NCBI GenBank assembly: GCA_002786715.1
Contig: PCTW01000061.1
Location: 1-64,000, forward strand
Length of the DNA stretch: 64,000 bases
Source of the DNA: Bdellovibrio sp. CG22_combo_CG10-13_8_21_14_all_39_27
GTDB taxonomy: Bacteria; Bdellovibrionota; Bacteriovoracia; Bacteriovoracales; Bacteriovoracaceae
Reading direction: 5' to 3'
Translations under genes and position numbers: made by a program
In this document: in pieces, positions 998 through 39,410 of the stretch
How positions within the stretch are numbered: the first letter of the stretch is position 1
How the letters are laid out: every line of letters starts with the position of its first letter
Notes under the pieces: model-generated
Told to the model about the DNA's origin: nothing
The model's input: the letters and a program-made list of their open reading frames with translations, nothing else
Databases searched by the model: none

Positions 998-1395
998 TGA
1001 AATCGTTAATTCTAGTTGCACTTATTGGCTTTTCAAGCGCCAATGCTGGTATTGGTGGAGCCTCTGGTGGTCACGTTAACTTTCAACGTGAAAGCACTTT
1101 TGTGAGTCCTCTTTTTAGCAAGTCACTTTGTTTTGACGGCGTTGATTTTCATGCTGACGTCAGCAAATGTGTAAAATGGTCAAATGACGATGATCGCGAC
1201 TGCCTAGAAAAGGTTAAAGTACATGCTGTTCAGCCTCAAGAGAGCACGAGAGAGCGTTGTGATAAGTACAATGATAATCGCTGTGAACTTTGGAAAACAG
1301 TTCCTTTTATTCAAAGTGAAGTTCGTAAAGTGGATATCATTGAAGACGATCGAGTCGTGGCGAATAAGTTTGTTAAAGTAAAACAATGTAAATAA
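997..1395 (+). CDS. Small exported six-cysteine protein
   Basis: A 132-residue protein with a clear signal peptide (MKSLILVALIGFSSANA, cleavage before GIGG). The mature part has six cysteines, an even number compatible with three disulfides in the periplasm or outside the cell, and is rich in charged residues (a DDDRD block). The C-terminal third matches the truncated protein at 2-100, so this is a paralog pair. It is coupled to the HTH gene upstream by a 1-nt overlap and followed by a strong terminator. I do not recognise the family and assign no function. Confidence 0.75.
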   Translation: MKSLILVALIGFSSANAGIGGASGGHVNFQRESTFVSPLFSKSLCFDGVDFHADVSKCVKWSNDDDRDCLEKVKVHAVQPQESTRERCDKYNDNRCELWKTVPFIQSEVRKVDIIEDDRVVANKFVKVKQCK

Positions 1396-1426
1396 TGAAG
1401 TTTTTAAAGTGATTCTTTAAATAGAG

Positions 1427-1453
1427 AAAGGGGGCTTAAAGCCCCCTTTTTTT
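1427..1453. terminator. Rho-independent terminator between convergent genes
   Basis: The stem AAAGGGGGC (1427-1435) pairs with GCCCCCTTT (1441-1449) around a TTAAA loop, with seven T from 1447. It ends the plus-strand unit at 1395. On the other strand the downstream tract is poorer in T, so termination of the facing minus-strand gene here is likely weaker. Confidence 0.9.
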
Positions 1454-1456
1454 CGT

Positions 1457-2236
1457 TTAGCGAGCGTCTGAGTTAATTTTCATTGTCACTGCTCCACTAA
1501 ACAGCTTTCTTGAATTCACTTTTGCTAAACTATTACCTGCCGCTCTTCCTGCAATTTGGAGGGGGCCATCTGCAAGTGCTAAAGCAAAGTCATTGTTTGA
1601 AGCATTGAATGAATCCTTAAATCCAATTCCAGATCTCCAGGCCATCAAAGCTGGTACAAATTCTACTTCTGAGTTTGCATTTACTCCTATTGAACCATTG
1701 GCCACTTTAAATCCCATGTTGAGGAAATTCTGACGATGAGAAGCCCCGAAGCATGATGTATTATAGATCATACGAAGTTTCTTCTTCATTCTCATTTTAT
1801 CAATCGTGTCCTGTCTGCTAGAGACTGAAAGCATTGCCGCTTCCATGTCCGTTGTTTTCCAAGTCAAGTCTTGAAAGGCCAGCTTACCAGGGGCCCCATG
1901 GACAGACATGATCACATCGATCGCCAGGACATTTGGGTCACGAGAGAACTCTTTTACGACACGTTTAAATTCTGGAAAGGTTGCTCGACCACCGGTTAAT
2001 ATATCAATGCGGTCGTACTTATCACCTAAGACTCCTTGAACAGTAACTTGAGTGAGCTCTTCAAGCGCACTATAGAGAGCACTTAATTCAGGAGCTCCTC
2101 TACTGTCGAGCTCCGCTACGACAACTAAAACTCGATTGCGAACACTCACACTCGCAATGGCCTGTGACATTGAACTGTAGGCAGCTGTTGCAGTTAAAAG
2201 GCCCGCTACCAGTAATTTTTTAAAAGTTGTTTTCAT
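1457..2236 (-). CDS. Secreted clan CD (caspase/gingipain-like) cysteine peptidase candidate
   Basis: A 259-residue exported protein. The start at 2236 is preferred because GGGGA lies 6 nt upstream and it gives a clean signal peptide (MKTTFKKLLVAGLL... to about QAIA). Two hydrophobic strands end in the clan CD hallmarks: IDVIMSVHG with His113-Gly, then LRMIYNTSCFGA with Cys162, in the expected order and about 49 residues apart. Caspases, gingipains, clostripain and legumain share this His-Gly/Cys dyad; a few residues upstream of His, FSRDPNVL has the spacing of the alpha/beta core. No RNA or p10-like extension is seen. It is divergent from the regulator at 2350. Peptidase activity is inferred from the dyad; the fold itself is only suggested. 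Confidence 0.6.
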   Translation of the reverse strand: MKTTFKKLLVAGLLTATAAYSSMSQAIASVSVRNRVLVVVAELDSRGAPELSALYSALEELTQVTVQGVLGDKYDRIDILTGGRATFPEFKRVVKEFSRDPNVLAIDVIMSVHGAPGKLAFQDLTWKTTDMEAAMLSVSSRQDTIDKMRMKKKLRMIYNTSCFGASHRQNFLNMGFKVANGSIGVNANSEVEFVPALMAWRSGIGFKDSFNASNNDFALALADGPLQIAGRAAGNSLAKVNSRKLFSGAVTMKINSDAR

Positions 2237-2349
2237 TTCTATCCCCATTTGTTTTTGGATGTTCATTCATCCTGAAATAGTTATCGCACCTCCTTTGATG
2301 AAGTTGTATAAATGTATGCTTATATAAAATGTTGTGATATGTTGTAATA

Positions 2350-4098
2350 ATGAAATCGATTAAACTCAAGAATTACGAGGGGTTATTTAAAAAGGGAGAA
2401 TACGAGCTCCTTAAGAAGTCTTTTGATAAAAATGATTACTCGGAAGATGAATTCCCATGGGTTCTTGCGGGAATGTGTTTTTTAGGACGTCTCGATGACC
2501 TGAAGATTATCATTAAAAAACGAAAGCTCTCATGCTTTGAATGTTTTTTCTTAATCATTGCTGCGACTCGAATTGGTGACTACCAAAGTGCAAAGAAATG
2601 GATTCAACAATTAGGAGCAATGTCATTTCAATCCAAACGAGACAGTGATCTCTTTTTTTATTATCAAGCACTTGCCTTTTATTCACACATTCATTGTCGC
2701 TATCGAATTAGCTTGGCCTTAACAAAAAGAAGTCATCAGTATTCACTTTTCTTATCCAATTCACTCTGGAAGGTTTTAGCTATTGATCTTCTTGGGCACA
2801 ATTATATTCATATGGGCAATATTCATCAGGGATTATTTTATCTCAATGAAGGAAGGACTCTTTCAAGTGAAATGGGGAATAAAAGTTGGGTTTCTGCTGC
2901 AACCGTATCAATTCTTTCTTATAAAGCACAATTTAGTGAAAATCCCGAAGATGATAAATCTAAAATCAAGAAGCATTTAAAAAAGATTAAAAATAACGAC
3001 AACTACTCTGAGGGATTACTCCTTTTAAGTTTGGCCCATCTTGAAATGTTGACTGGGCAGATGGAAGAGTGCCGCTTGATTCTCAATAAAGCTCAGACCA
3101 TTATTTTTGGAAATCAAGTTTTAAGACATATGGGGTTGTGGCACTTTGAGAAAGCTTACTATCATTACTTAACAGGTGAAGCTGAAATTGCCTTGTCTGA
3201 ATTGCAAAGAGCTTTGGGTTTGACTACGACAAGAACAGATAAAAAACTAAGACTAAAAATTTTGGGACTTAAGCAGCAAATAGGGAATCGATTAGGTAAA
3301 AAGGAAATTTTCCTCGATCAAGAAATCCTTGATCTGAGCAAAAGTCTTGGCGATCCTCGCTCTCACAATCAGTTGGCAAGAAGAGGAATTCATCAATTTG
3401 TGCCCAGTGAAGATCCTCTGGAGTCCTTGTTTAATGAGTTCTCTTCTGAGAATTGGCAAAAATCAATAACTGGAATTATTCACTTTGGCCTTTGGGGTTT
3501 GCTGAGAGAAAAGGTCGCGAGCAAACAAAGAAATTATTTAGTTACAGGTCTTTGGAAAAGCGGCGCTCTCTTTATTACCCAGCATAATGTTTATCCCGTC
3601 TTTAAAGGAGTAAGTGATCTCTTGTTAAAAGCATTTTTAATTTTAAATGCCAAAAACAAAGTTTCCAAAGAGGAACTGGTAGAGAGCCTTTGGGGTTATC
3701 AGTATGATCCTTCAAGGCATGACACCCTCATTTTTAGTCTCATTCATCGATTAAAGGTTTTGATGGGAACGCTTGGTCTGGATATAAAGGGCGAAGCTCA
3801 TCATTATAATCTAAGGACAAAATACGATATTTTGGAGCTAAGTCCTCTAAAAGACGAGCTTATTCAATCCGAAATCTTACATAGTAGCTTGTTAAACGGC
3901 CAAAGCTTTAATATAAGACAGCAACAAGCTTTACTCATGATCAAAAAAGGACGCTTCTTTAAGGTTTCCGACTACGCTCAAGAGTTTAAAGTTACAACAA
4001 TGACAGCTTTGCGAGACCTGAAAGAGTTGTTAGATCAACATCAGATCGTAAAATACGGAAGAGCTCGAAGTACTACTTATGGGGAAGTTATAAAATGA
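2350..4098 (+). CDS. TPR-type regulator with two C-terminal winged-helix segments
   Basis: A 582-residue cytoplasmic protein. Residues about 60-330 are helical pairs resembling tetratricopeptide repeats. Residues about 435-500 (KEELVESLWGYQYDPSRHD, then a helix IHRLKVLMG and YNLR) look like the OmpR/SARP-type winged helix. The last ~65 residues (VSDYAQEFKVTTMTALRDL, QIVKYGRAR) look like a second, DeoR/Fic-C-terminal-type winged helix. The whole resembles large SARP/LuxR-like regulators with the sensor and DNA-binding parts in swapped order. No Shine-Dalgarno precedes the ATG. It overlaps the next gene by 4 nt (ATGA) and faces the secreted peptidase gene across an 113-nt intergenic region, which it may control. 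Confidence 0.65.
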   Translation: MKSIKLKNYEGLFKKGEYELLKKSFDKNDYSEDEFPWVLAGMCFLGRLDDLKIIIKKRKLSCFECFFLIIAATRIGDYQSAKKWIQQLGAMSFQSKRDSDLFFYYQALAFYSHIHCRYRISLALTKRSHQYSLFLSNSLWKVLAIDLLGHNYIHMGNIHQGLFYLNEGRTLSSEMGNKSWVSAATVSILSYKAQFSENPEDDKSKIKKHLKKIKNNDNYSEGLLLLSLAHLEMLTGQMEECRLILNKAQTIIFGNQVLRHMGLWHFEKAYYHYLTGEAEIALSELQRALGLTTTRTDKKLRLKILGLKQQIGNRLGKKEIFLDQEILDLSKSLGDPRSHNQLARRGIHQFVPSEDPLESLFNEFSSENWQKSITGIIHFGLWGLLREKVASKQRNYLVTGLWKSGALFITQHNVYPVFKGVSDLLLKAFLILNAKNKVSKEELVESLWGYQYDPSRHDTLIFSLIHRLKVLMGTLGLDIKGEAHHYNLRTKYDILELSPLKDELIQSEILHSSLLNGQSFNIRQQQALLMIKKGRFFKVSDYAQEFKVTTMTALRDLKELLDQHQIVKYGRARSTTYGEVIK

Positions 4099-25300: not shown

Positions 25301-26143
25301 ATGAATAAGACACTTTTTATAATTACTGAACAAAAATATCCTCATCTTACCCAAGATGATCAGGTTTTGAAGTCCGCTTTTGGAAAGCTCCAAGTTGATG
25401 TCAAAGTCGTGATATGGAATCACTTTAAACCTCAATTAAAAAGTCATGTTCTCATTCGTACGCCTTGGGATTATTCTGAGCATCGGCAAGATTTTGAAAA
25501 TTTTTTAGGTCTTTTAGAAGAAATGCAATGTCAGGTTTTTAATCCGCTTTCCACTCTAAGATGGAATATGAATAAACGTTATCTGTTAGAACTTCAGGAG
25601 CTCAATATTCCCATTGTTCCAACTCATATTGTCGATCATTATTCATTTTCAGATGCTTCTCAATTTTTAAAATTTGGGCCAATTGTAGCGAAACCATTAG
25701 TAGGAGCTGGAGGGCGCGATACTTTCTTGATTCGCGATGAATCTGAAATTCAAAAGAGCATTTCATTACTTGAAACGGAAGTTATTTTGCAACCGATGAT
25801 TGAAAGTATTTTGAATGAAGGTGAGTACTCTTTTCTTTATTTTGGTGGTGAGTTCTCTCACGCCCTTTTGAAGAAAGCAAAAAAGGGTGAATTTCGTATT
25901 CAAGAAAAACACGGTGGAACAGTTGAACATTATCAACCCAGTGATTTTGAAATAAATGAGGTCACTGCATCTTTAAAAAAAATAAAATACTCAATGACTT
26001 ATGTTCGTGTCGATATGGTTCGCATTGAAGGGAAGTTGTCGATCATGGAACTTGAAGCGGTCGAACCGGAACTCTTTTGGAGATTAAAACCTCAAGCCGC
26101 GGACGAATTTGCCAGTTTAATTGCGAAGGAATGGACGTTATGA
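25301..26143 (+). CDS. ATP-grasp family enzyme
   Basis: A 280-residue cytoplasmic protein of the ATP-grasp fold: an N-terminal domain with LIRTPWDYSEH and WNMNKRYLLEL, then the ATP-binding core with GPIVAKPLVGAGGRDTF (Lys plus glycine-rich loop) and a C-terminal metal-binding strand (RVDMVRIEGKLSIMELEAVEP, ending in Glu pairs). The R-x-x-WDY motif is typical of the DcsG/glutathione-synthetase-like group that ligates a carboxylate to an amine. The substrates are unknown. Its stop overlaps the start of the arsC relic. Confidence 0.75.
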   Translation: MNKTLFIITEQKYPHLTQDDQVLKSAFGKLQVDVKVVIWNHFKPQLKSHVLIRTPWDYSEHRQDFENFLGLLEEMQCQVFNPLSTLRWNMNKRYLLELQELNIPIVPTHIVDHYSFSDASQFLKFGPIVAKPLVGAGGRDTFLIRDESEIQKSISLLETEVILQPMIESILNEGEYSFLYFGGEFSHALLKKAKKGEFRIQEKHGGTVEHYQPSDFEINEVTASLKKIKYSMTYVRVDMVRIEGKLSIMELEAVEPELFWRLKPQAADEFASLIAKEWTL

Positions 26144-27225: not shown

Positions 27226-27254
27226 TTGGAATATCAAGAGCATTGTGCTTAAAT
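27226..27254 (+). promoter_or_regulatory. Candidate promoter of the urate-catabolic operon
   Basis: TTGGAA (27226-27231) and TTAAAT (27249-27254) are separated by 17 bases, each matching the sigma70 consensus at 4 of 6 positions. The transcript would begin near 27261, which argues that puuD starts at TTG 27285 (or GTG 27273) rather than at TTG 27243. Confidence 0.4.
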
Positions 27255-27284
27255 CATTCATTCAATTTACGAGTGAGTTATGCT

Positions 27285-28940
27285 TTGAGTCAAGAGTTCT
27301 TCGATTGGTTGCTATTATTAGGTCGGTGGTTGCACATCACGGTTGCCGTGACGTGGATTGGAACCAGCATTTTCTTTATGTGGTTGGACCGTACTTTTTC
27401 ACCTAATCCTAATAACCATCGAGAAGGTCACGTTGGGGATCTTTGGATGGTTCATGGTGGCGGCTTTTATCAAGTAGAAAAAATGCTGATGGGGCCAACT
27501 AAAGCGCCAGAACATTTGCATTGGTTCAAATGGGAGAGTTATTGGACTTGGATCAGCGGTATGTTTTTGCTGATTCTCACTTATTATTCTGGAGAAGGAA
27601 CTTTTCTTCTCGACTCAAGTGTTTCCTCGATTACTTTTTATCAAGGCATCGCCATCGGACTTGGTACCATTTTTGGGACTTGGTTTCTCTATGACTTTAT
27701 TTGGGAAACCAAGCTCAGTCGCGAAGTTCCCGAACTTTGTCATATCATCACCATGATTATTTTCTTTCTGGTAACAGTCTTCCTTTGTAAGACGTTAAGT
27801 GGTCGCGCCGCTTATATTCATGTGGGTGGGATGCTCGGAACTTGGATGGCCGGTAACGTTTTCATGCGAATTATTCCTCGCCAGCTCAAAATGGTTGAGG
27901 CATCGAAGGTTGGGACTCCGGTTAATCAAGAGTGGGCGAAGAATGCCAAAAATCGCTCAACCCATAATACTTATTTTACTCTGCCCGTTATTTTCATCAT
28001 GCTCTCCAATCATTTCCCTATGACCTATGGGCATGATTTGAATTGGCTCATTCTCCTCGTGATCAGTGCTGCAGGAGCAGCGATCAGACAATATTTTGTT
28101 ATTCGTTTGAAGAAGCCAAAAAATGCTAAGATATTTGCTGTTATTGGAGTGCTTATTCTTCTCGGTCTGATTGTTGCAACATCGATGAATTCGTTGATGC
28201 CTAAAACTGATCATCATACCGATTCTCATAAGGGACCTGTCAGTTTGGCGACTCCTTACCAGGAAGATGCAGTTGATGCTTCAACCATTAAAGATGAGTT
28301 TGTTGCAACCGTGAAAGGAACAGTTTCCTTTAAGGGTATTGTTCCTCAAGGCAAAAAATTAAGGCTACCAAGTGCCTGTGCTAAACAATACCCTGGCGAC
28401 GTTTATTCAGATGAAATTAAAGTAAATAATGGTCATCTGCAAAATGTGTTGATTCGTATTTCAAAAGGGTTGGAAAAACGCATTTACAAAGATGTTCCGC
28501 AACAGGCAGTTGAAATTGATCAACGTGGATGTATATACCTGCCGAGAGTTTCAGCGGTGAGAATTGGACAGCCTGTGGCTTTTATCAATTCAGATCCTGT
28601 CGTGCATAATGTGAAGTCATTAACTAAAAATAATCAAAGCTTTAATTTGATGATGCCTAAGCAAGGGCAAAGAGAAGAGAAGAAGTTTGATCAAGCCGAA
28701 CTTTTGCTTGAGACCAAATGCTCGTTTCATCCATGGATGAGTTCTTATATTGCCATTCTCGACCATCCTTTTTTTGCTATTACAAAAGAAAATGGAAGTT
28801 TTGAAATTTCCAATTTGCCGAAAGGTACATATACGCTTGAAGCCTGGCACGAAGTTTTAGGAACGCTAACACAAGAGATTACAGTTACTGACTCAAAAGA
28901 TATCAATGTACATTTTACCATGGAGAGAGGGGAGAAATGA
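27285..28940 (+). CDS. puuD: Membrane urate oxidase PuuD with a C-terminal cupredoxin domain instead of cytochrome c
   Basis: A 551-residue protein that oxidises urate to 5-hydroxyisourate at the inner membrane. The N-terminal ~320 residues match the PuuD/Urate_ox_N membrane domain: WLHITVAVTWIGTSIFFMWL, MVHGGGFYQVEK, HLHWFKWESYWTWISG and eight or so TM helices. Canonical PuuD ends in a cytochrome c domain with CxxCH; none exists here. Instead the last ~200 residues carry a type-1 copper site: His441 (FINSDPVVHNV) and Cys479-x-x-His482-x-x-Met485 (TKCSFHPWM). A peptidase-regulatory-like beta segment follows (FEISNLPKGTYTLEAWHE). Electrons would pass to copper rather than haem. The start is a TTG, chosen from family N-terminus and promoter position; upstream TTG 27243 is an alternative. 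Overlaps uraH by 4 nt. Confidence 0.85.
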   Translation: MSQEFFDWLLLLGRWLHITVAVTWIGTSIFFMWLDRTFSPNPNNHREGHVGDLWMVHGGGFYQVEKMLMGPTKAPEHLHWFKWESYWTWISGMFLLILTYYSGEGTFLLDSSVSSITFYQGIAIGLGTIFGTWFLYDFIWETKLSREVPELCHIITMIIFFLVTVFLCKTLSGRAAYIHVGGMLGTWMAGNVFMRIIPRQLKMVEASKVGTPVNQEWAKNAKNRSTHNTYFTLPVIFIMLSNHFPMTYGHDLNWLILLVISAAGAAIRQYFVIRLKKPKNAKIFAVIGVLILLGLIVATSMNSLMPKTDHHTDSHKGPVSLATPYQEDAVDASTIKDEFVATVKGTVSFKGIVPQGKKLRLPSACAKQYPGDVYSDEIKVNNGHLQNVLIRISKGLEKRIYKDVPQQAVEIDQRGCIYLPRVSAVRIGQPVAFINSDPVVHNVKSLTKNNQSFNLMMPKQGQREEKKFDQAELLLETKCSFHPWMSSYIAILDHPFFAITKENGSFEISNLPKGTYTLEAWHEVLGTLTQEITVTDSKDINVHFTMERGEK

Positions 28941-29260
28941 TTAGTACTCACATACTCGACACAAGTAATGGCAAACCTGCTGCTGAGATTCCTGTACGTC
29001 TCGAACGGTTTGAAAACGAAACTTGGAATCTGATTGATGAACAGTCATCAAACGGAGATGGAAGAATTGTTTTTAACTGCCCATTCGAAGAAGGTGTCTA
29101 TCGCTTGCTCTTTGAAATTGACGCCTATTTTGAAAAAAATAACCAAGATCATTTTTTCTTAAGAACTCCCGTGGTTTTTAAAATCACCGACGTGAAACGA
29201 AAATATCATGTGCCTTTGCTTTTAAATCCTTATGGCTACTCTACTTACCGAGGCAGTTAA
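28937..29260 (+). CDS. uraH: 5-hydroxyisourate hydrolase (transthyretin-like)
   Basis: A 107-residue HIUase converting 5-hydroxyisourate to OHCU. The full family signature is present: STHILDTSNGKPA with His5, Arg43 in GDGRIVF, His91 in KYHVPLLLNPYGYSTYRGS, including the C-terminal Y-R-G-S. It has no signal peptide, so it acts in the cytoplasm. ATGA overlap with puuD and 5 bases before the fused enzyme place it as the second step of the operon. Confidence 0.95.
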   Translation: MISTHILDTSNGKPAAEIPVRLERFENETWNLIDEQSSNGDGRIVFNCPFEEGVYRLLFEIDAYFEKNNQDHFFLRTPVVFKITDVKRKYHVPLLLNPYGYSTYRGS

Positions 29261-29265
29261 TTTCT

Positions 29266-32200
29266 ATGAGCTTTGAAATTCCTTATTATAGCGATTATCT
29301 CTCTAACCAATTGAAAGACCATTTGCTGTCCAAAGCGAAGCCTCTCTTTGGAATAGAAGGGCTTTCTTTGGTTGGAGAAAGTGGAGGCCTTGAAAATAAA
29401 GCAGCCATGCAGTTCTTAGTTGATCTCTATGGCGAAATTCAACCAAGTCTCGCCCTCGTTTTGAAAAAACGAATGGAAGATCGGGTCTTTATTGATGAAC
29501 GAACTCGCTCTTGTGTGGAATTTAATAAAACTTTGAAAAATGATTTTCAAACGAGTGAATATAAAACGTTATTAGGGGAGCGTGACAGTAACGGCCGAAT
29601 TGTGATTGGCCCTCATACTGAAAATTATGTAACGAGTGTTGGCAAAAAACCAGTAGCTCCTATCCCTGATTATTTACAAGGTCCCCATGTCACCTTGTTT
29701 GGTCCACCCGATAGCGAAAAAATGTGTGTGAATGCCATGAATGCTTTTCACCGCACCGTGAAGAATGAGCCGGCCATCATCAAAGAGTTGGTTTCTAAAG
29801 TTAAATATACTCCCAAATGGGGTGCGGATAATGAAGATTCAAAAACCCCTCTTCATCGCGATTTTCAATCGGCAGGGGTTAATTTATCACGATCACTCAG
29901 TCACGACCTCGACTTCACTGATGAAAGAGGGAAGCGCTATCAACTAGAGAATGATCACCTCTCGCACGCCATAAAAAGATTTCCAGGATTGGCACTACCG
30001 AGCTTTTTTCTTTTTTATCGAAATGAACCGGTGCCTTTGCATGTTTATGATTTTGCTCTCCATATGTTTGAAAATTGGAACAATAAAGAAGCCTTAGTTT
30101 TTTATGTTCCTAAATTAGAAAACGAAGAAGAAGCAAAATACATCAAGCTGATGATGGAGACAGCTGAGAGCTTGATGAAGAAAGTTCACCCCGAGTATCA
30201 AATGGGAACCATTCGTTTGATGATCGTGCTTGAAAACCCCCGTGCCGTTTTTCGAGTGAATGAGATAATGGATGAGCTCTATCCTTACTTTGTCGGAGCT
30301 TCTCTCGGTTGGCATGATTATTTAGGCTCTACGGCCAGACTTTTTAAAGAAGATCCCAATTACCGAATTCCTGTCAAGGCCGATCCAGATATCGTGATCA
30401 AATATATTAAGGCTTCTCATCGCTTGCTCGCCGATGTGGTGGGTGCAAGAGGCGGAATTAAAGTTGGAGGGATGTACGGCATTCTGCCAACGACCTATGA
30501 TATCGATACAGCTTCTTTTCAAGTGACCATGGTTGGTTATATTCGCGATGTCATAACTCAGATGAAGCGCGACCTGACTGGCTTCTGGGTGGCCCATCCC
30601 GATTTTGTTCGCATCGGAATGGCCTTAGTCGAAGCTTGGAAAATCTATCAAAAAGGTGATTTTAGTAAACTCGAATCCTTAGTCAAAAGCTTGCTGCATG
30701 AAAAACACCACAAACCGGTGCTCGATTTTATTTTGGGTGATGATATCGAGGGACTTGATACTCACGATCCTCTTTATGCTCGCTCTCTATTGGTTGCCGA
30801 TGTTGGAACTTCTAATATAGTGGCCAATAACGATCCTTGGGAAATTCGCTATAATGTTTTTCAATCACTTCAATACATAACTGATTGGCTCAGTGGAAAT
30901 GGATGCGTTGCTCTTCCGACAAATATTGGAGGTGAAGCAGTTCGTATCATGGATGATTTAGCTACGGCCGAGCGCTCTCGTTGGGAAGTCTGGCATGAAC
31001 TTTATCACGGACGATTTGATCTTTTTGAATTTCTGAAAATTGCTCACGAAGAACTGCATTTCATTCGAAAAGATTTATCTGACTCTAAGAAAATAGTTCA
31101 AGTGAAGTGGAATGAGCAAAATGCCAAGTGGTACCCCGTTGCGATGAAGATCATGCTGAAGCTGATGACAGATAAACGCCCCGCTGAATTTGCCACTGAA
31201 GTCTTATTACCTTTTACAATTGATACGATTCGCAATAGTAATGATCCTTGGAAGGCCGCTTGTGGCATTGATCCTGTGAAATTTGCCATTGATCCCGTTA
31301 TCTTAAAATTCAATTACTATTTTGAGCGCTGTGGAGACTTGTCGTTCGCAAAAGCTTTGGCCAAAGATAATCTGGTAGATTTAAATAAAGTAGAAAAGCT
31401 TATCTTGAGCTTCAATCTGTCTCAAATTCAATCGGCTGCCAGTTTTCACGGAGACATCGGAGAGTCTAAGAAAACACTCGATGCCATGGCTTCAAAAGAA
31501 CAAGCTCTTGTCTTTAATGAAGAGGCGAGTATCCTCGCTGAGTTAAAAACACTGGGACAACAGTATCTCGATCAATTTGGCGTAAAGTTTCTCATCTCAG
31601 CGAAAGGAAAATCAGGTGGTGAACTATTACAAGCCTTAAAACAGAGAATAGTAGGAACAAAAGAGCAAGAGTTGCAAAATGCCCGAATCGCTCTTTTTGA
31701 AATTACCAAAAAACGCATGTTAGATGAGCCATTGAATGAACTCTCAAATAAAATTCTTAAGCTAAAAGAAAAGTTCAATGTTCATTCGCTTCAGGTTGCC
31801 ATAACCGAGCAAGGTTCAACTCAACAAATGAGTTTTGGAGTCGATTCGTATTTTGAAATAGCTTCTCTTTCAAAAACAATAGGAACGACAATTGCTCTTG
31901 AGATCTTTAGAAAAGAAGGAATACCTCTTACATCCAAAGTAAATGAGTTGTTGAATAACTATCAATCTTCTTTTCAAATTCCTGATGGGAAAGATGTAGA
32001 GCTGACCCACTTAATGAATCACACCGCTTTAAATATGCATTATGTAAATGGAGTTCCTTCAAACATTGATATGCCTGCGATAGATCAATTTTTAACGGGA
32101 CTTGAGCGCTATGGTTATGAACCAGTTCGAGCTTTAGGGAATCCTGGTCAACAATTTCACTACTCAGGTGCTGGCTTTATTGTTCTGGAATATTTACTTG

Positions 32201-33897
32201 AGCTCATTTCTAAAAAGAAGTTTTGTGACCTGCTAAAAGATTTTACTCAGCAGTTTCAATTGAAAGGTTTGATTAGTGAGAATGAAGCGAAACAATTTTC
32301 AATTGCCACAGGTTATCGTGATAGCGAAGAAGAAGTCCCAAGTGGACGTCTTATGTTTCCAAGTATTGCGGCTGGACTTTTAGGCACGGCCACTGGCATG
32401 CAAGAGTTCTTACAGCTTTTAACTAAGGCCCATTCAGACATCAATCATCCCTTGCATGATACAGCTACTCAAATGCTATTGGGAGAAGATTGGGGAAGTC
32501 GCACTTTTATGGGCGTTGATATGGGACTCGGTGTTTTTATCGGAGAGTGTGGTCCAAATAAAGTGATGATCCATCAAGGGGCCAATGATGGTTACCGTGC
32601 GCTCTTTTTTCATTGCTTTCAAGGGCCAAATCGCGGAACAGGCTTTACTTTGCTAGGTAATGGAGAGCTTAATAATGTTTTTCTCAATGCTCTAGTCGCT
32701 CAAGAGATTTTAAAAGAGCTTAAGTTTGATGGAATAGATTTTTCACAATTTAATTTGCGTTTTGATCCAAGTAGCTTAAAGCAAGAAGAAATCGTCAACT
32801 ATGGTTATAAAAAACTGGTATTTGATGCTTTTCAGCCGGATCTTCCAGAAGTTTATCAACATGAAGAATTAGATCCTTTGTGCGGGTATAATCATCTGGT
32901 TGGAGCAGATATCATTGAAGTTTCAAATCAAAAATTTGCTCGAGCAGAAAATGTCATTTCTCCTTATGTCCCTCTTTTTGATCCCACTTATTTTGGTCGT
33001 CAAGGTAAGGTGATGGATAGTTGGGAAACTGTTCGTCACAATACTAAAGGCGTTGAGCGACTCCTCTTAAAGATGGAATTTCCTGTTAATGTCGAATATG
33101 CCTCAATCTGTACTAAATATCATCACGGCAATCAGGTTCAAGAAGTTGAGCTGCGAGGACAAAATGTTAAGGGAGAATGGCTTGATCTCCTTCCAAAGAC
33201 CTCTATGGAAGGCCATTCGTTCCGAAAAATAAAATTAAATCAGATTTATCGCGATATTAAGTTTGTTCTCGTTTTAGCATATCCCGATGGAGGGCTCACA
33301 CGACTTGGGCTTTATGAGATGATTCCATCAGAATTTCAAAATGAATTTGATGGAAAACTTCATCAGTACAAAGAAAAAATTCCGGCGACGTTAAAACCGC
33401 TCAGCCTTCATATCGATATCACACCAGATTTTATTAAAAGACAGTTTTCTAAACTTAAAATCGGTGATCTCTATGATGCAGCTTCTATGGCCTTTGGTGG
33501 AAAAATTGTGAAAAGTAGTAATGAACATTATGGCCCAGCTGCTCAAGTGATTTCGCCCTTTGCCCCCATTAATATGTTTGATGGCCTAGAATCGGCCCGA
33601 AGTCGAATAGCAGGTAATCACGAAGAAGTGGATATTGCTCTGGCAAAAACCACAAGCATTGAATCCATTGAGTGTGATTTCACTTATTTTGTGAACAATA
33701 ACCCAATGGATATGGAAATTTTAGGATTGAGTAAAGGCCAATGGATCAATCTTATGAAGAAACGCAAAGTGAAGGCTTATGCGGGAAATAAGATGAGAAT
33801 TTGCATAAACTCGCAAGAATTGTTTGAACAAATTAAAGTAAAATGTTTTCCCGATGGAGGATTGAATCGAATCCATGTCTTCGCCAAACACTCCTGA
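29266..33897 (+). CDS. Fused ureide-pathway mega-enzyme: malate-synthase-like / OHCU decarboxylase / serine hydrolase / double allantoicase
   Basis: One uninterrupted 1543-residue frame. Residues about 1-625: malate synthase A family (FGPPDSEKMCVNAMNAF, VPKLENEEEA, GTIRLMIVLENP with Glu322, GWHDY with Asp351, VAHPDFV, GNGCVALP, MDDLATAERSR); the RPRGWH segment is diverged (RFPGLAL). About 685-818: OHCU decarboxylase UraD (His728 in FHGDIG, SKEQ at 743-746, QRIVGTKEQEL). About 835-1165: serine beta-lactamase-like hydrolase (Ser867-x-x-Lys870, Tyr966-Ser-Gly, His1103-Gln-Gly). About 1190-1540: two allantoicase domains (GKVMDSWETVRHN, AYPDGGLTRLGLYE; GKIVKSSNEHYG, CFPDGGLNRIHVF). Together these cover OHCU to allantoin, allantoate to ureidoglycolate, and glyoxylate to malate. 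Domain calls are solid by motif; activity of the first and third domains is inferred. Confidence 0.85.
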   Translation: MSFEIPYYSDYLSNQLKDHLLSKAKPLFGIEGLSLVGESGGLENKAAMQFLVDLYGEIQPSLALVLKKRMEDRVFIDERTRSCVEFNKTLKNDFQTSEYKTLLGERDSNGRIVIGPHTENYVTSVGKKPVAPIPDYLQGPHVTLFGPPDSEKMCVNAMNAFHRTVKNEPAIIKELVSKVKYTPKWGADNEDSKTPLHRDFQSAGVNLSRSLSHDLDFTDERGKRYQLENDHLSHAIKRFPGLALPSFFLFYRNEPVPLHVYDFALHMFENWNNKEALVFYVPKLENEEEAKYIKLMMETAESLMKKVHPEYQMGTIRLMIVLENPRAVFRVNEIMDELYPYFVGASLGWHDYLGSTARLFKEDPNYRIPVKADPDIVIKYIKASHRLLADVVGARGGIKVGGMYGILPTTYDIDTASFQVTMVGYIRDVITQMKRDLTGFWVAHPDFVRIGMALVEAWKIYQKGDFSKLESLVKSLLHEKHHKPVLDFILGDDIEGLDTHDPLYARSLLVADVGTSNIVANNDPWEIRYNVFQSLQYITDWLSGNGCVALPTNIGGEAVRIMDDLATAERSRWEVWHELYHGRFDLFEFLKIAHEELHFIRKDLSDSKKIVQVKWNEQNAKWYPVAMKIMLKLMTDKRPAEFATEVLLPFTIDTIRNSNDPWKAACGIDPVKFAIDPVILKFNYYFERCGDLSFAKALAKDNLVDLNKVEKLILSFNLSQIQSAASFHGDIGESKKTLDAMASKEQALVFNEEASILAELKTLGQQYLDQFGVKFLISAKGKSGGELLQALKQRIVGTKEQELQNARIALFEITKKRMLDEPLNELSNKILKLKEKFNVHSLQVAITEQGSTQQMSFGVDSYFEIASLSKTIGTTIALEIFRKEGIPLTSKVNELLNNYQSSFQIPDGKDVELTHLMNHTALNMHYVNGVPSNIDMPAIDQFLTGLERYGYEPVRALGNPGQQFHYSGAGFIVLEYLLELISKKKFCDLLKDFTQQFQLKGLISENEAKQFSIATGYRDSEEEVPSGRLMFPSIAAGLLGTATGMQEFLQLLTKAHSDINHPLHDTATQMLLGEDWGSRTFMGVDMGLGVFIGECGPNKVMIHQGANDGYRALFFHCFQGPNRGTGFTLLGNGELNNVFLNALVAQEILKELKFDGIDFSQFNLRFDPSSLKQEEIVNYGYKKLVFDAFQPDLPEVYQHEELDPLCGYNHLVGADIIEVSNQKFARAENVISPYVPLFDPTYFGRQGKVMDSWETVRHNTKGVERLLLKMEFPVNVEYASICTKYHHGNQVQEVELRGQNVKGEWLDLLPKTSMEGHSFRKIKLNQIYRDIKFVLVLAYPDGGLTRLGLYEMIPSEFQNEFDGKLHQYKEKIPATLKPLSLHIDITPDFIKRQFSKLKIGDLYDAASMAFGGKIVKSSNEHYGPAAQVISPFAPINMFDGLESARSRIAGNHEEVDIALAKTTSIESIECDFTYFVNNNPMDMEILGLSKGQWINLMKKRKVKAYAGNKMRICINSQELFEQIKVKCFPDGGLNRIHVFAKHS

Positions 33898-34789
33898 ACA
33901 GGAACATATTGTTGAACGTGCAGTAGGGCTTTCCTTGATTGAAGTCTTTCTCGGTACTTTTCTTCATACTTTTAAAATTCCTTTTGCTGGTCATTTCTTG
34001 TCCCTCAATCAAGGACTCTATCTCACTCGAATGACTGAAGTCGGCCAATCGCGTTTTAGCGTTGCCAAAAACTGTTTCGAAGTTTCAGTGGTTGCTGCCA
34101 TGATGAAAACCTTAGCGCCTTCGGTTAAAAAATTGGGACCGATGATAAGTATTTCAACCCAAGGATTTCTATATGCCCTAGGACAAGTTCTTTTTGGGAC
34201 AAAAACGATGGGACAGATTATTTCCATGGTCTTGCTCTCTCTCTGGGCCTTCGTTCAGCCTCTTATCACTTATTATATTATGTATGGTTCTGACTTAAAA
34301 CGGGCCCTCATTTACTTTGCCGAAAAAGTACAATCAGGACTTTCAATTCCAGAGGAGTTCTTTTGGGGATTTTTTATCGCACTTATCTTAGTCAAATTAA
34401 CTTTCGCAACTTCGGTTCCTTTTATAGTTAAAAAAATGGAAGGGTCCTTGCTAGATCGTTTTGAGCAATTCTTAAAATCATTTAGTCGTGTGAAGAAAGA
34501 GGCGACATCTAGATCACCATTACATGGTGCCTTTATGGATCTTTTGCGTCCCTCAGTCGTTTTTTCAATAGTGATGATGGGAGTCTTTTTTAGTTTTAAT
34601 GGATTGGACTCGGCTTTGGTGGTTTGGAAACTCTCACGTGCAATTTCTATCGCCTTTCTTCTCTTTTATTTGGCGCGAACACCTATCGCATCAAGATTCT
34701 TCTTTAAACTCGCGCGAAAGCATCCAAGCTTTGAACGGCTCTATCAAATTTCATCTCTTGCCTATAAAGAACTAAGGGCGAGACTTTAG
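33875..34789 (+). CDS. Multi-pass membrane protein, candidate purine/ureide or urea transporter
   Basis: A 304-residue inner-membrane protein with about six TM segments. The first half (LIEVFLGTFLHTFKIPFAGH, FLSLNQGLYL, TQGFLYALGQVLFGTK) resembles S-components of ECF vitamin/purine transporters in hydrophobic pattern. The second half adds further TM helices and a basic C-terminal tail. I do not recognise a precise family. It overlaps the mega-enzyme gene by 23 nt, so it belongs to the urate operon; a GGAGG 14 nt upstream is distant. Uptake of a purine base, or export of the urea or ureide product, is inferred from context only. Confidence 0.6.
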   Translation: MSSPNTPEQEHIVERAVGLSLIEVFLGTFLHTFKIPFAGHFLSLNQGLYLTRMTEVGQSRFSVAKNCFEVSVVAAMMKTLAPSVKKLGPMISISTQGFLYALGQVLFGTKTMGQIISMVLLSLWAFVQPLITYYIMYGSDLKRALIYFAEKVQSGLSIPEEFFWGFFIALILVKLTFATSVPFIVKKMEGSLLDRFEQFLKSFSRVKKEATSRSPLHGAFMDLLRPSVVFSIVMMGVFFSFNGLDSALVVWKLSRAISIAFLLFYLARTPIASRFFFKLARKHPSFERLYQISSLAYKELRARL

Positions 34790-35557
34790 CCAGGCATCAC
34801 GGACTGTTAGCAATTCTGCTACAATGCTGATAGCGATTTCCTCGGGATCATTGCTTCCAAAAGAAAGACCAATTGGAACTCGCAGCTTTTTTAAAAAGTC
34901 TGCATTAACATCAAGAGCTTGAAGTTCGGTCCTAAGGGCATTTCCCTTGCTCTCAGAGCCAATGGCTCCAACATAAGGAGCATTGGGAAAATGCTTAGCG
35001 ATCTCTCGAAGAACAGGAACATCAGAGGTATGGCCTTTGGTTACTGAAATAAAAAAAGTATTAGAGTCGAAAGAGGCTACGGCCTCTTCAGGTTTATCAA
35101 ACTGAAGTTTTTTGAGTTTAGAGTTGGTAGGCAATTGATCGAGCCATACACTTCGATCATCAATTACTGTTAGCTGACATTTTAAATTTATCAGCGCTCT
35201 GGTGAGAGCTTGCGAGACGTGACCTGCTCCAAAGAGCGCCAGTTTCCAAGATTGAAAAGCAAAATGTTCAAAGAGAAAGGTGACTTCTCCACCACAAGTC
35301 ATCTTAATATCTTTTTGTAAATTCCATGTGATTGTTTGGGGAGCTTTCTGATGAGATTGACCTAAAATTTCTTGAGCATACTTTTCGCAGGCTGCCTCCA
35401 CTTTTCCACCACCAACTGTTCCTGCTTCTAATCCCTTGGCAGAGAAAAGGGCCTTCGCTCCAAGATCTTGAGGAGCAGATCCGCGAACAGCAATAATGGT
35501 TGCAGTGACGAAACTACAATTAAGGTCTGTGAGTTCCTGAGCGCGTTTGAAGATCAT
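34772..35557 (-). CDS. xdhC: Xanthine dehydrogenase accessory protein XdhC
   Basis: A 261-residue chaperone that binds molybdenum cofactor and promotes its sulfuration and insertion into XdhB. XdhC features: AVRGSAPQDLGAKAL, GTVGGGKVEAAC with the conserved Cys, MTCGGEVTFLFE, a Rossmann motif LALFGAGHVSQALTR, and a C-terminal IGLSFGSNDPEEIAISIVAEL. The start overlaps the xdhB stop (TAATG), so xdhA-xdhB-xdhC are coupled. Its end overlaps the convergent membrane protein gene by 18 nt. Confidence 0.9.
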   Translation of the reverse strand: MIFKRAQELTDLNCSFVTATIIAVRGSAPQDLGAKALFSAKGLEAGTVGGGKVEAACEKYAQEILGQSHQKAPQTITWNLQKDIKMTCGGEVTFLFEHFAFQSWKLALFGAGHVSQALTRALINLKCQLTVIDDRSVWLDQLPTNSKLKKLQFDKPEEAVASFDSNTFFISVTKGHTSDVPVLREIAKHFPNAPYVGAIGSESKGNALRTELQALDVNADFLKKLRVPIGLSFGSNDPEEIAISIVAELLTVRDAWLKSRP

Positions 35558-37974
35558 TAAGCATCCCACATTTTAAAAAGATCAGGGTGAATATTTCTCA
35601 GGATCTCTTCATTCGTCGCTGGAATTTTTATTTGCGGAGGTGCCGACTCAAAATGCGGAAGTGACATCAAGGCATTGTTAACGGCCGCCCACACACTCAA
35701 GGCCAAAAGAAGGGGAGGTTCACCCACTGCTTTCGTTCCGCGAACGTTAGCATAATTCTCTTCATTCTCAAGGAGCTTAATGCAAAAGTGCCTTGGAGTA
35801 TCTTGGACACTTGGAATTTTATAAGTGCTTGGTGCGTGAGATAACAGAAGTCCTTGGTCGTTATAAAAAAGATTTTCAGTTGTGACCCAGCCCATGCCTT
35901 GAATAAAAGCACCGGCCACTTGGCCAATGTCGAGAGCTTCATTCACTGGGCGCCCTAGATCCATCAGAATATCAGTGGCATCAACTTTAAGCTCACCTGT
36001 ATCTTTATTTAAAGTTACTTCCGAACAAGCAACACCTTGTGTGAAATAGAGAAAAGCATTTCCTTGGCCACTGAGTTTGTTAAATTCAATCCCTGGAATT
36101 TTATAATGGGCATAGTCAGAGAGACCAATGCGATTGAGATAGGCTTCAAGAATGAGATTTGAGAAAGCTATCTTCTTTTCAGGTTGATCTTCGTGGTAAA
36201 CCATTCCGTCCTTAAATAGGATTCCGAAATAAGTGGCAATTCCCGTCGGCCAAATAGCTCCTTCATTAGGATCATTAACATCGAGATTCGGTTTTTCTAA
36301 TTCGATTTCCGGTTCCGTTCCTAGACCTGCCGTTTTCGAAGCCCATCGATCAGATGGAGTCTTGAGCAGCTTCGAAGCAAACTCACTTAAACGAAACTTG
36401 ATTTTTCGAGTAGCGAGTAAGGCCGCTGCACCGTTGAGATCTGTTCCTGAAGAAGCAGCAGTTGGAGAGGTATTGGCATTTTTATCAGTACGAGTGGGCA
36501 TAACTCTGGCCTGATGGCGTGGAAGGCCCAATTCACTGGTCACCATTTGGGAAATGCGGGCATTCACTCCCTGGCCCATCTCGGTGGCTCCGGTTGAAAT
36601 TTGAAGCGAACCGTCTTGGTGAATAATCACCATCGCATTGGCTTGATTTAAAAAACGAGTGGTAAATGAAATGCCAAACTTCACGGCCGTCATGGAGAGG
36701 CCTTTTATATACTGATGATTCTCGCGATTAAACTTTTGAATCGCTACTCTTCGCGCTTGATAATTGCAATCCGCTTCTAGTTTTTCAAAAAGCTTAGGCA
36801 GGCAATTGTTTTCAAATTTTTGACCATAATGGGTCATGTTGCGATTTTCAATATCGGAGTAAACATTGAGCTTGCGAATCTCAAGCGGATCTTTGTTTAA
36901 AGCATGGGCGATACGCTCAATGATTAATTCAATGGTCGCGACACCTTTGGGGCCACCGAAACCTCTGAAAGCTGTATGAGGGTGATGATTGGTTTTGCAA
37001 ACTTGTCCGGTCACATGCATATGCGGAATATAATAAGCATTATCGGAGTGAAGCATTGCTCGTTCCATAATGGAAGTCGAAAGATCGGCGTAAGCACCTG
37101 CATCTGAGTAAAGCTGAACATCAAGTCCTAAGATTCGACCATTTTCATCAAAGCCCACTTCAAAATCATTCTCGAAGGGATTGCGCTTTCCAGTCATGAT
37201 CATGTCATCGTCTTTAGTGAGGACGATACGAACAGGACGATTGAGTTTTTGTGCACAAAGAGCGGCCATGGCTGCGAAAGGCGCCGCTTGCGATTCTTTT
37301 CCTCCGAATCCTCCTCCCATGCGCTTCACAATACAAACCACATCTTTGTCGGGAATGCCTAATGCATGAGCGACCACGTGTTGAGTTTCAGTTGGGTGTT
37401 GAGAAGAAGAATGTATTTCGATTTGCCCATCTTCAAGGGGATAAGCAATCGAGACTTGGCTCTCAAGATAAAAATGATCGGCACCCTGTATGGTAATGCG
37501 ACCAGAAAGTTTATGAGGTGCAGACTTGATAGCCTCTTTAGCGTCGCCACGCTTAATGAAGCGAGCATCGGCAATAAATGATTTTTTACTGCGAGCTTCT
37601 TGAATAGACATGACCTTCGGAAGGTCATTGTATTCAATCTCCACCAATTGCTTGGCCCTTTGGCAGTCGGCCAGATCAGAGCCTACGATCAAGGCAATGG
37701 GTTCACCTGCAAACTGGACTTTATCTGTAGCAAGCAGTGGTTGGTCTTTAAAAATCGTTCCCCACAAATTATGGTGAAGATCGTGACCAGTAAAAACGGC
37801 GACGATATTTTTGTGTGCGAGCACTTTATCAAACGATATTTTTTTAATTTCAGCATGAGCACGAGTTGAATAGAACACATCGACGAAAAGTTCATTTTTT
37901 AAGAGTGGACGGTCATCGACATACTCGCTCAGACCTTGAACATGGTTATGGGCACTATCATGAGGTAATTTCAT
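35557..37974 (-). CDS. xdhB: Xanthine dehydrogenase, molybdopterin-binding subunit
   Basis: An 805-residue subunit holding the Mo cofactor, oxidising hypoxanthine/xanthine to urate. Recognisable are the N-terminal beta-barrel-type domain (AHNHVQGLSEYVDD), RMGGGFGGKESQAAPFA, HTAFRGFGGPKGV with the substrate-binding Arg, ATEMGQGVNARISQM, and GTKAVGEPPLLLALSVW with the catalytic Glu. Length is normal for bacterial XdhB. It overlaps xdhA by 4 nt and xdhC by 1 nt. Confidence 0.95.
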   Translation of the reverse strand: MKLPHDSAHNHVQGLSEYVDDRPLLKNELFVDVFYSTRAHAEIKKISFDKVLAHKNIVAVFTGHDLHHNLWGTIFKDQPLLATDKVQFAGEPIALIVGSDLADCQRAKQLVEIEYNDLPKVMSIQEARSKKSFIADARFIKRGDAKEAIKSAPHKLSGRITIQGADHFYLESQVSIAYPLEDGQIEIHSSSQHPTETQHVVAHALGIPDKDVVCIVKRMGGGFGGKESQAAPFAAMAALCAQKLNRPVRIVLTKDDDMIMTGKRNPFENDFEVGFDENGRILGLDVQLYSDAGAYADLSTSIMERAMLHSDNAYYIPHMHVTGQVCKTNHHPHTAFRGFGGPKGVATIELIIERIAHALNKDPLEIRKLNVYSDIENRNMTHYGQKFENNCLPKLFEKLEADCNYQARRVAIQKFNRENHQYIKGLSMTAVKFGISFTTRFLNQANAMVIIHQDGSLQISTGATEMGQGVNARISQMVTSELGLPRHQARVMPTRTDKNANTSPTAASSGTDLNGAAALLATRKIKFRLSEFASKLLKTPSDRWASKTAGLGTEPEIELEKPNLDVNDPNEGAIWPTGIATYFGILFKDGMVYHEDQPEKKIAFSNLILEAYLNRIGLSDYAHYKIPGIEFNKLSGQGNAFLYFTQGVACSEVTLNKDTGELKVDATDILMDLGRPVNEALDIGQVAGAFIQGMGWVTTENLFYNDQGLLLSHAPSTYKIPSVQDTPRHFCIKLLENEENYANVRGTKAVGEPPLLLALSVWAAVNNALMSLPHFESAPPQIKIPATNEEILRNIHPDLFKMWDA

Positions 37975-39410
37975 ACTTGAACCTCACTGAAAAAGCGCCG
38001 GAGATAATTGCTCATGAGAACTCGGCGATAGCTGGCCGAAGCTCTGACATCGCTGAGAGGCTTGAACTCGGAATGAGCAATTTGAATGGCCTGATCAATC
38101 ATGGCGGCATCAAGTTTTTTGCCCATGAGAAACTGTTCTGTTTTCTTCAAGCGAAGAGGAATGGCCGCGATTCCTCCTGCTGCAATTGTAATTTGTTTGA
38201 TCGTGCCAGCATCGGCAGAAGCTAAAATACCAAGATTGACGGTAGAAATATCTAAGTCTTTTCGAATGCTCGTTTTATATAATTTCAAAATTTGATTTTT
38301 TTCTGGAAGCTTAAAACTTATGGCCGTTATCAATTCATCTTTGGCCTTTGCCGTTTTGCGATAATCGAGAAAGAATTCATGCAAAGGGATTTGCCTTGAA
38401 CCTTTAGTCGATTGCAAATGTATTTCTGCATTCAAGGCCAGAAGAGCTGGTGGAGTATCCCCAATGGGTGAGGCATTGGCCACATTGCCGATGACTGTTG
38501 CATTGTTTTTAATTTGGGGAGATGCAAAGAGGTCAATGTAATGCGCAAGCTCAGGAATTTTGTTTTTTACGAAATGGCGAAATTCATTGATCGTCACTCG
38601 TGCGCCAACAGTGATGATATTTTTGTCTTCAGTGATAGCATAAAAATCATTGATCAAATGAAGACTCATCAAACGGGTTAATTCTAATTTTCGTTTGTTA
38701 TGAACGACTCCTAAATCGGTTCCCGAAGCGATGATGCGAACATCTTGATGGGAACTTAAATAGTCACAGGCTTCTTGTGCTGTCTTGGGGGCAAAGTATT
38801 GATACTCACTATTTTCTAGTCCGACACTTTGATTAAAGACGGACTCAAGTTCTTTTTGAATTTCTGCCGAATGGTAGCGGTCTTTTAAGCTTTTCTCTTT
38901 AGTGAGGTCCATTTTAGTACCGGCAGTGATAATCGCTTCATAGCCAGTACAGCGACAAAGATTTCCAGTGGTCGAATTTTTACATTCTTTTTCGGAAATT
39001 ACTTTTTCATTGCGAGAAAGTTTTTCTTCGCAAAGTCCGGCGTAGGCCATGACAAAACCAGGGGTACAAAAACCACACTGACTGCCATGACAATCAACCA
39101 TGCTTTGTTGGGATTCATGCAAACGCGAATCATCTTTCAACGATTCAACCGTTAAAACATGGGAGCCATCGAGTGTTGCGACTGGTGCTAAACATGAATT
39201 GATCGCGAGAAAGCGATCGGCGTCAGTTCCCTTAGAGTGCGGGAAATAGCGAAGAACGCTACAGGCTCCGCAGTCACCTTCGGCACAAACCACTTTGGTT
39301 CCGGTCAAAGATTTTTGATAACGAAGATAATCAGCCAGCATCATCGAAGCATCGGCTGCTTCGACATCACAACGCTGACCATTGAGGTAAAAAGTTATTG
39401 TTTTTCGCAT
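37971..39410 (-). CDS. xdhA: Xanthine dehydrogenase small subunit (2Fe-2S and FAD domains)
   Basis: A 479-residue subunit. The N-terminal plant-type ferredoxin domain has Cys42, Cys47, Cys50 (CAEGDCGAC) and Cys73. The second [2Fe-2S] domain has CGFC at 112-115 and CRC at 152-154. The FAD-binding domain follows (VIGNVANASPIGDTPPALLA) and the CO-dehydrogenase-like C-terminal domain ends the chain. It passes electrons from Mo in XdhB to FAD and NAD. First gene of xdhABC; no Shine-Dalgarno precedes the ATG, which is close to a strong -10 box. Confidence 0.95.
   Translation of the reverse strand: MRKTITFYLNGQRCDVEAADASMMLADYLRYQKSLTGTKVVCAEGDCGACSVLRYFPHSKGTDADRFLAINSCLAPVATLDGSHVLTVESLKDDSRLHESQQSMVDCHGSQCGFCTPGFVMAYAGLCEEKLSRNEKVISEKECKNSTTGNLCRCTGYEAIITAGTKMDLTKEKSLKDRYHSAEIQKELESVFNQSVGLENSEYQYFAPKTAQEACDYLSSHQDVRIIASGTDLGVVHNKRKLELTRLMSLHLINDFYAITEDKNIITVGARVTINEFRHFVKNKIPELAHYIDLFASPQIKNNATVIGNVANASPIGDTPPALLALNAEIHLQSTKGSRQIPLHEFFLDYRKTAKAKDELITAISFKLPEKNQILKLYKTSIRKDLDISTVNLGILASADAGTIKQITIAAGGIAAIPLRLKKTEQFLMGKKLDAAMIDQAIQIAHSEFKPLSDVRASASYRRVLMSNYLRRFFSEVQV

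Follow-up and report, generated by a model that had tools for sequence, protein, structure and literature searches.

What would a serine hydrolase be doing in the middle of a protein whose other parts belong to malate synthesis and purine breakdown? The question is raised by an open reading frame in the window, a stretch of 64,000 nucleotides from a Bdellovibrio sp. assembly (contig PCTW01000061.1). Positions 29266-33897 of the plus strand translate as an uninterrupted frame of 1543 aa, with an ATG start and a stop at 33897. This bears out the earlier note, which had described a single polypeptide of 1543 residues, and every motif quoted there is present. The gene and its parts are as follows.

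29266..33897, plus strand: the entire fusion (1543 aa), in domain order malate synthase, UraD, serine hydrolase, allantoicase
29266..31305, plus strand: malate synthase (MS) domain, residues ~1-680 (Pfam, alignment to 3cuz, AlphaFold model, invariant residues)
31306..31740, plus strand: OHCU decarboxylase (UraD) domain, residues 681-825 (Pfam, comparison with UraDs of the phylum, invariant residues)
31741..32865, plus strand: S12/class-C-beta-lactamase-fold serine hydrolase (SH), residues 826-1200, predicted serine allantoinase (Pfam, model, Foldseek, invariant residues, AllB/fusion exclusion)
32866..33894, plus strand: allantoicase domain of two repeats, residues 1201-1543 (Pfam, alignment to 1sg3, conservation)

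The same four domains had been proposed earlier, and Pfam agrees, all four families exceeding their curated cut-offs, including UraD and allantoicase, whose failure to match had been named as grounds for giving the proposal up. The MS TIM barrel (PF01274) covers residues 239-453 (E 1.1e-21, 77.5 bits against a cut-off of 26.4) and MS_C (PF20659) residues 526-644 (36.4 against 23.1 bits); OHCU_decarbox (PF09349) covers 707-818 (E 1.1e-16, 62.2 against 24), Beta-lactamase (PF00144) 839-1135 (E 5.3e-17, 62.4 against 27), and Allantoicase (PF03561) two stretches (E 3.6e-40, 137.7 against 27). Relatives in the PDB are E. coli malate synthase A (MSA), yeast allantoicase and OHCU decarboxylases. The NCBIfam models recognise the same families, yet all equivalog cut-offs are missed: malate_syn_A TIGR01344 gives 143.1 bits against 594.5, UraD TIGR03180 64.5 against 139.4, allantoicase TIGR02961 149.9 against 277.9, and bla_class_C, for SH, 31.9 against 415. 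The domains are thus divergent members of their families, whose scores do not guarantee their specificity; judged by TIGR01344, the fused MS domain is malate synthase-like and no standard MSA, and judged by bla_class_C, SH is no resistance gene. The allantoinase models AllB (TIGR03178) and PuuE (TIGR03212) do not match the fusion protein.

The genes around the fusion place it in urate catabolism.

27243..28940, plus strand: PuuD-type membrane urate oxidase (PF06181, 5fc9 match, motif census)
28937..29260, plus strand: 5-hydroxyisourate hydrolase, HIUase (TIGR02962 over cut-off, spacing)
33875..34789, plus strand: membrane protein, 304 aa, no known family (no Pfam match; homologues beside purine genes)
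34772..35569, minus strand: XdhC, xanthine dehydrogenase maturation factor
35557..37974, minus strand: XdhB, xanthine dehydrogenase molybdopterin subunit
37971..39410, minus strand: XdhA, xanthine dehydrogenase FeS/FAD subunit

The urate oxidase, HIUase and fusion genes run in the same direction and overlap or almost touch: the stop of the first overlaps the start of the second, which ends just before the fusion begins, and the membrane protein gene overlaps the 3' end of the fusion. Of the 89 loci examined, some of which lack the fusion, 82 encode HIUase and most encode urate oxidase, planctomycete loci having a soluble uricase in place of the PuuD-type enzyme; a dCMP/guanine deaminase-type enzyme is encoded at 11 loci. 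With these neighbours every step up to OHCU has its own gene.

The steps beyond OHCU would fall to the fusion itself. Its UraD residues H728, E745 and Q746 are present in 67 of 67 fusion proteins and identical in the stand-alone UraDs of the phylum; a Ser-to-Ala change in the S..EQ motif was considered as a defect and rejected, since this substitution also occurs in stand-alone UraDs encoded by AllB operons of the phylum. Yeast allantoicase 1sg3 aligns across both allantoicase halves, and in both repeats the residues examined vary little or not at all. Judged by family models, the conversion of allantoin to allantoate is the step without a recognised enzyme in this pathway, and SH is the domain without a role. 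The purine-to-malate logic of the earlier note is upheld as to domains, operon and catalytic residues; the note had overlooked the allantoinase gap and given SH no role.

What kind of enzyme, then, is SH? It carries the motifs S867-xx-K870, Y966-S-G and H1103-Q-G, and S867, K870, Y966, S967, G968, H1103 and G1105 are invariant in all 67 non-identical fusion proteins; the motifs LMxHxALNMHYVxGxP and HQGANDGxR are also strongly conserved. Its structure model (pLDDT 94.7, pTM 0.93) resembles S12 esterases, DD-peptidases and class C beta-lactamases (Foldseek, E 5e-18; TM 0.6-0.7 at 15-19% identity), with TM 0.70 and 17% identity for the best match. By its PF00144 match, SxxK, Tyr motif, HxG and modelled fold SH is an S12 serine hydrolase, and sequence and predicted fold indicate nothing narrower. 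We know of no S12 allantoinase.

It is the comparison of genomes that points to SH as the domain filling the allantoinase gap. Over the TIGR03178 cut-off AllB is found in 23 of 369 genomes of the phylum Bdellovibrionota and the fusion in 67 (52 of them with an essentially full-length match), and the two never occur in the same genome. Of about 26 genomes with a stand-alone allantoicase 22 have AllB (24 if two contig-edge fragments are counted; best E-values were the basis for six of the 26, two of which were confirmed), against none of the 67 fusion genomes, which gives a Fisher p of ~1e-17 to 1e-20, uncorrected for relatedness. A Fisher test on all 369 genomes (p 0.012) was set aside as having the wrong denominator. 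The AllB clusters that were read hold the genes for AllB, allantoicase, UraD and HIUase side by side, and the two types alternate within genera: in g149 genome G327 has the fusion and G328 AllB, in g160 G342 has the fusion and G341 AllB. No AllB passes the cut-off in the 17 genomes from which the planctomycete-clade loci derive, and for Planctomycetota the exclusion covers these 17 fusion genomes only. PuuE over the TIGR03212 cut-off was found in none of 80 genomes searched, 78 of them fusion-bearing.

A true split of the gene, into malate synthase, SH-allantoicase and AllB-UraD, is seen only in genus g9 (loci L132, L133, L028, L029, L135 and L136), where the products are a malate synthase-like protein of 728 aa (two copies in G008), an SH-allantoicase of 763 aa and an AllB-UraD of 617 aa. 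There SH has Y966F and HHA for HQG (G1105A), with the allantoicase residues retained, and this loss of the SH active site alongside AllB supports SH as the allantoinase elsewhere. AllB passes the cut-off only in G008 of the three genomes, is partial in G137 and was not found in G138, which is 68% complete; the evidence comes from a single lineage and hence counts as one event.

Because of the AllB exclusion and the conservation of the SH active site, we propose, and regard as quite probable, that the fusion is a four-enzyme polypeptide leading from OHCU to malate, in which the allantoinase is SH, a serine enzyme that needs no metal and is related to neither AllB nor PuuE. OHCU, supplied by the urate oxidase and HIUase encoded next door, would be converted to (S)-allantoin by UraD. 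In the manner of S12 enzymes, Lys870 and Tyr966 would activate Ser867 for attack on the hydantoin amide, and the ring would be opened to allantoate via an acyl-enzyme on this serine. SH would pass the allantoate to the next domain, the allantoicase, to be cleaved into urea and ureidoglycolate; the latter would release another urea together with glyoxylate, either on its own or through the allantoicase domain, since some allantoicases are said to cleave ureidoglycolate too. The malate synthase domain would then condense glyoxylate with acetyl-CoA to malate. Each catalytic activity, above all that of allantoinase, and any channelling between domains are what we infer from this arrangement.

One may suppose instead that SH acts on another intermediate, most likely on ureidoglycolate, freeing glyoxylate, and that an unrecognised enzyme opens allantoin. 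The absence of an AllA-type ureidoglycolate lyase from the 39 relatives, AllB and fusion types alike, leaves ureidoglycolate cleavage without an assigned enzyme and would agree with such a role. The AllB genomes of the set, however, lack AllA as well and have no SH in the pathway, so that it is AllB that SH complements, and ureidoglycolate breaks down spontaneously to glyoxylate and urea (PMC3793230). Nor do the clustered flanking ORFs of the loci contain a further hydrolase family that is widely conserved. We consider this reading unlikely, if the most serious of the alternatives.

It is rather improbable that SH is a structural element, or an unrelated esterase or peptidase, and that the allantoinase is a divergent dihydroorotase-like cyclic amidohydrolase. 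Fusion genomes do have such homologues below the AllB cut-off, and related reactions are known within the cyclic amidohydrolase family. The sub-cut-off AllB matches (~120-290 bits) were rejected as allantoinases, as the two examined are of dihydroorotase type: the sole full-length AllB-like match of the window genome is best to dihydroorotase models (pyrC_multi, below its cut-off), and that of genome G016 passes the PRK09060 dihydroorotase cut-off. Matches of this kind are equally common in genomes without purine genes, and none was seen in purine clusters. As for a scaffold, catalytic residues of SH that stay invariant across two phyla would not be expected of one.

To return to the proposed route from OHCU to malate, its last step depends on the MS domain. 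The residues R238 (catalytic Arg), E323 and D351 (Mg-binding) and D564 (base Asp), encoded by codons at 29977, 30232, 30316 and 30955, align with R165, E249, D277 and D446 of 3cuz, a numbering one below the published Asp447; the catalytic roles in malate synthase, including that of the base Asp447, are described in PMC3112382. All four are invariant in 67 of 67 fusion proteins. The AlphaFold model of the domain (pLDDT 92) has MSA 3cv2 as its best fold match, with TM 0.84 by target length. Loss of the catalytic Arg through the change of RVRGLH to RFPGLA was considered and rejected: the first Arg, taken as catalytic, is retained. It might still be thought that the domain uses another aldehyde with acetyl-CoA, or is a lyase, and that something other than malate is formed. 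The domain shares only about 23% of its residues with E. coli MSA, two active-site residues lie in altered surroundings (RFPGLAL for RVRGLHL, GWHDY for GRWDY), and the malate_syn_A score falls short of the equivalog cut-off. Against this stand the four retained active-site residues, among them the counterpart of the base Asp447, the fold match, and a pathway that supplies glyoxylate, and we hold another product to be very improbable.

The source of this glyoxylate can be considered too. Isocitrate lyase is missing from 22 of the 39 fusion genomes, the window genome included; in the latter a role of the fused malate synthase in the glyoxylate shunt is therefore unlikely. Where isocitrate lyase is present, it often adjoins a separate canonical malate synthase (for instance G024 C1 and G013 C32). 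The fused MS domain looks dedicated to purine-derived glyoxylate. Urease was not detected in 43 genomes searched, nor in particular in the 37 fusion genomes tested, which makes urea a probable waste product; together with the missing isocitrate lyase in 22 of 39 genomes, this leaves carbon, as malate, as the likely yield of the pathway.

The composition is not peculiar to the window genome; it belongs to a family conserved in two phyla. Seven orthologues from other genera near the window genome share 43-57% identity with it and have the same architecture and order in one frame. An alignment-based scan of 84,980 species genomes retained 80 related loci (a single-sequence scan of genome contigs gave no matches). 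Among the related loci in public genome assemblies 65 hold complete one-frame ORFs with the four domains in the same order, which answers the suggestion made earlier to look for their co-occurrence elsewhere. Their hosts are Bdellovibrionota (Bacteriovoracaceae, Oligoflexia, Bdellovibrionales) and Planctomycetota, and a few loci come from bins whose labels, Proteobacteria or Deltaproteobacteria, are loose. A quick maximum-likelihood tree (midpoint root, SH-aLRT support only) places the planctomycete proteins in a single clade with support 100, nested within the Bdellovibrionota proteins, which suggests that the planctomycete fusion arose from one transfer; of 294 sampled Planctomycetota genomes one has the fusion, namely the centre genome itself. 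Some few loci (L090, L102, L119) are split by frameshift or contig ends, mostly within a domain. That an assembly artefact had joined separate genes, a doubt raised with the first description and one for which no support was found, is a practically negligible prospect, refuted by orthologues that are likewise single frames in dozens of distinct genomes.

How does the protein compare with known systems? The allantoicase model PRK13797 / NF010371 (521 aa) matches the allantoicase part, where it scores 105.7 bits and stays below its cut-off of 814. Its members are bifunctional allantoicase/OHCU decarboxylase proteins, which have two of the four activities of the fusion on one chain but lack malate synthase and SH, and by score the fusion protein is not one of them. 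E. coli MSA (3cuz/3cv2) shares the TIM barrel, the C-terminal domain and the four catalytic residues; the fused MS chain differs in being longer, in having an insert before the C-terminal domain and in being joined to three purine enzymes. AllB (TIGR03178) performs the reaction predicted for SH and holds its slot in genomes without the fusion, but it is a cyclic amidohydrolase, unrelated in fold and mechanism to an S12 serine hydrolase, and a dinuclear metalloenzyme (PMC9863593). PuuE offers a precedent for drawing an allantoinase analogue from another enzyme family (Ramazzina 2008, cited in PMC6983136). Its source was the polysaccharide deacetylases; it is not homologous to SH and was not found in the 78 fusion genomes. 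The MEROPS S12 enzymes IS11 (7spn), R61 (3pte) and LACTB (7v21) share with SH the fold and the SxxK, Tyr and HxG motifs; SH stands apart by its low identity and TM to these relatives, its own motifs and its position embedded between UraD and allantoicase.

In the open-access literature no paper was found on the four-domain composition or on a serine-hydrolase allantoinase, in line with the earlier note, which knew of no described enzyme of this composition. Fused pathway enzymes are already known as a kind; the four-domain combination and the predicted third class of allantoinase appear to be new. That SH represents such a class, metal-free and working through an S12 acyl-enzyme, within one polypeptide covering OHCU to malate, we think likely. 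A single chain would then feed urate catabolism into central metabolism, and an old reaction would have a new enzyme. The hosts are related to bacterial predators and may meet prey nucleic acid in large amounts. The proposed reading would also correct annotations that name such proteins malate synthase or beta-lactamase, and it illustrates how the enzyme for a seemingly absent pathway step may be concealed in a fusion as a domain that looks "extra".

In the window urate oxidase a blue (type 1) copper-like domain replaces cytochrome c at the C-terminus: residues 431-503 match 5fc9 (E 1.6e-5) and are followed by a carboxypeptidase-regulatory-like tail. Among the urate oxidase homologues of the loci a copper-type motif, C..H..M, is present in 44 and a haem motif, CxxCH, in 15; no protein combines the two, and 10 have neither. 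A cytochrome has been reported as invariably present in PuuD (PMC4562309), and the copper-domain protein looks like a second electron-transfer variant of that enzyme. At loci L023, L052, L059, L066 and L105 the urate oxidase homologues have 301-310 aa, lack a C-terminal electron-transfer domain and lie shortly upstream of HIUase and the fusion. The 304-aa membrane protein, homologues of which adjoin purine genes at L025, L095 and L140, may be a purine or urea transporter, or simply an operon member. Further upstream in the window, at 25301-26143, there is an ATP-grasp enzyme whose nearest match, D-cycloserine synthetase DcsG, scores 120 bits against a cut-off of 360. At locus L137, positions 1338-3965, an ORF of 875 aa joins a PuuD-type urate oxidase to an AllB allantoinase and is followed by genes for allantoicase, UraD and HIUase.
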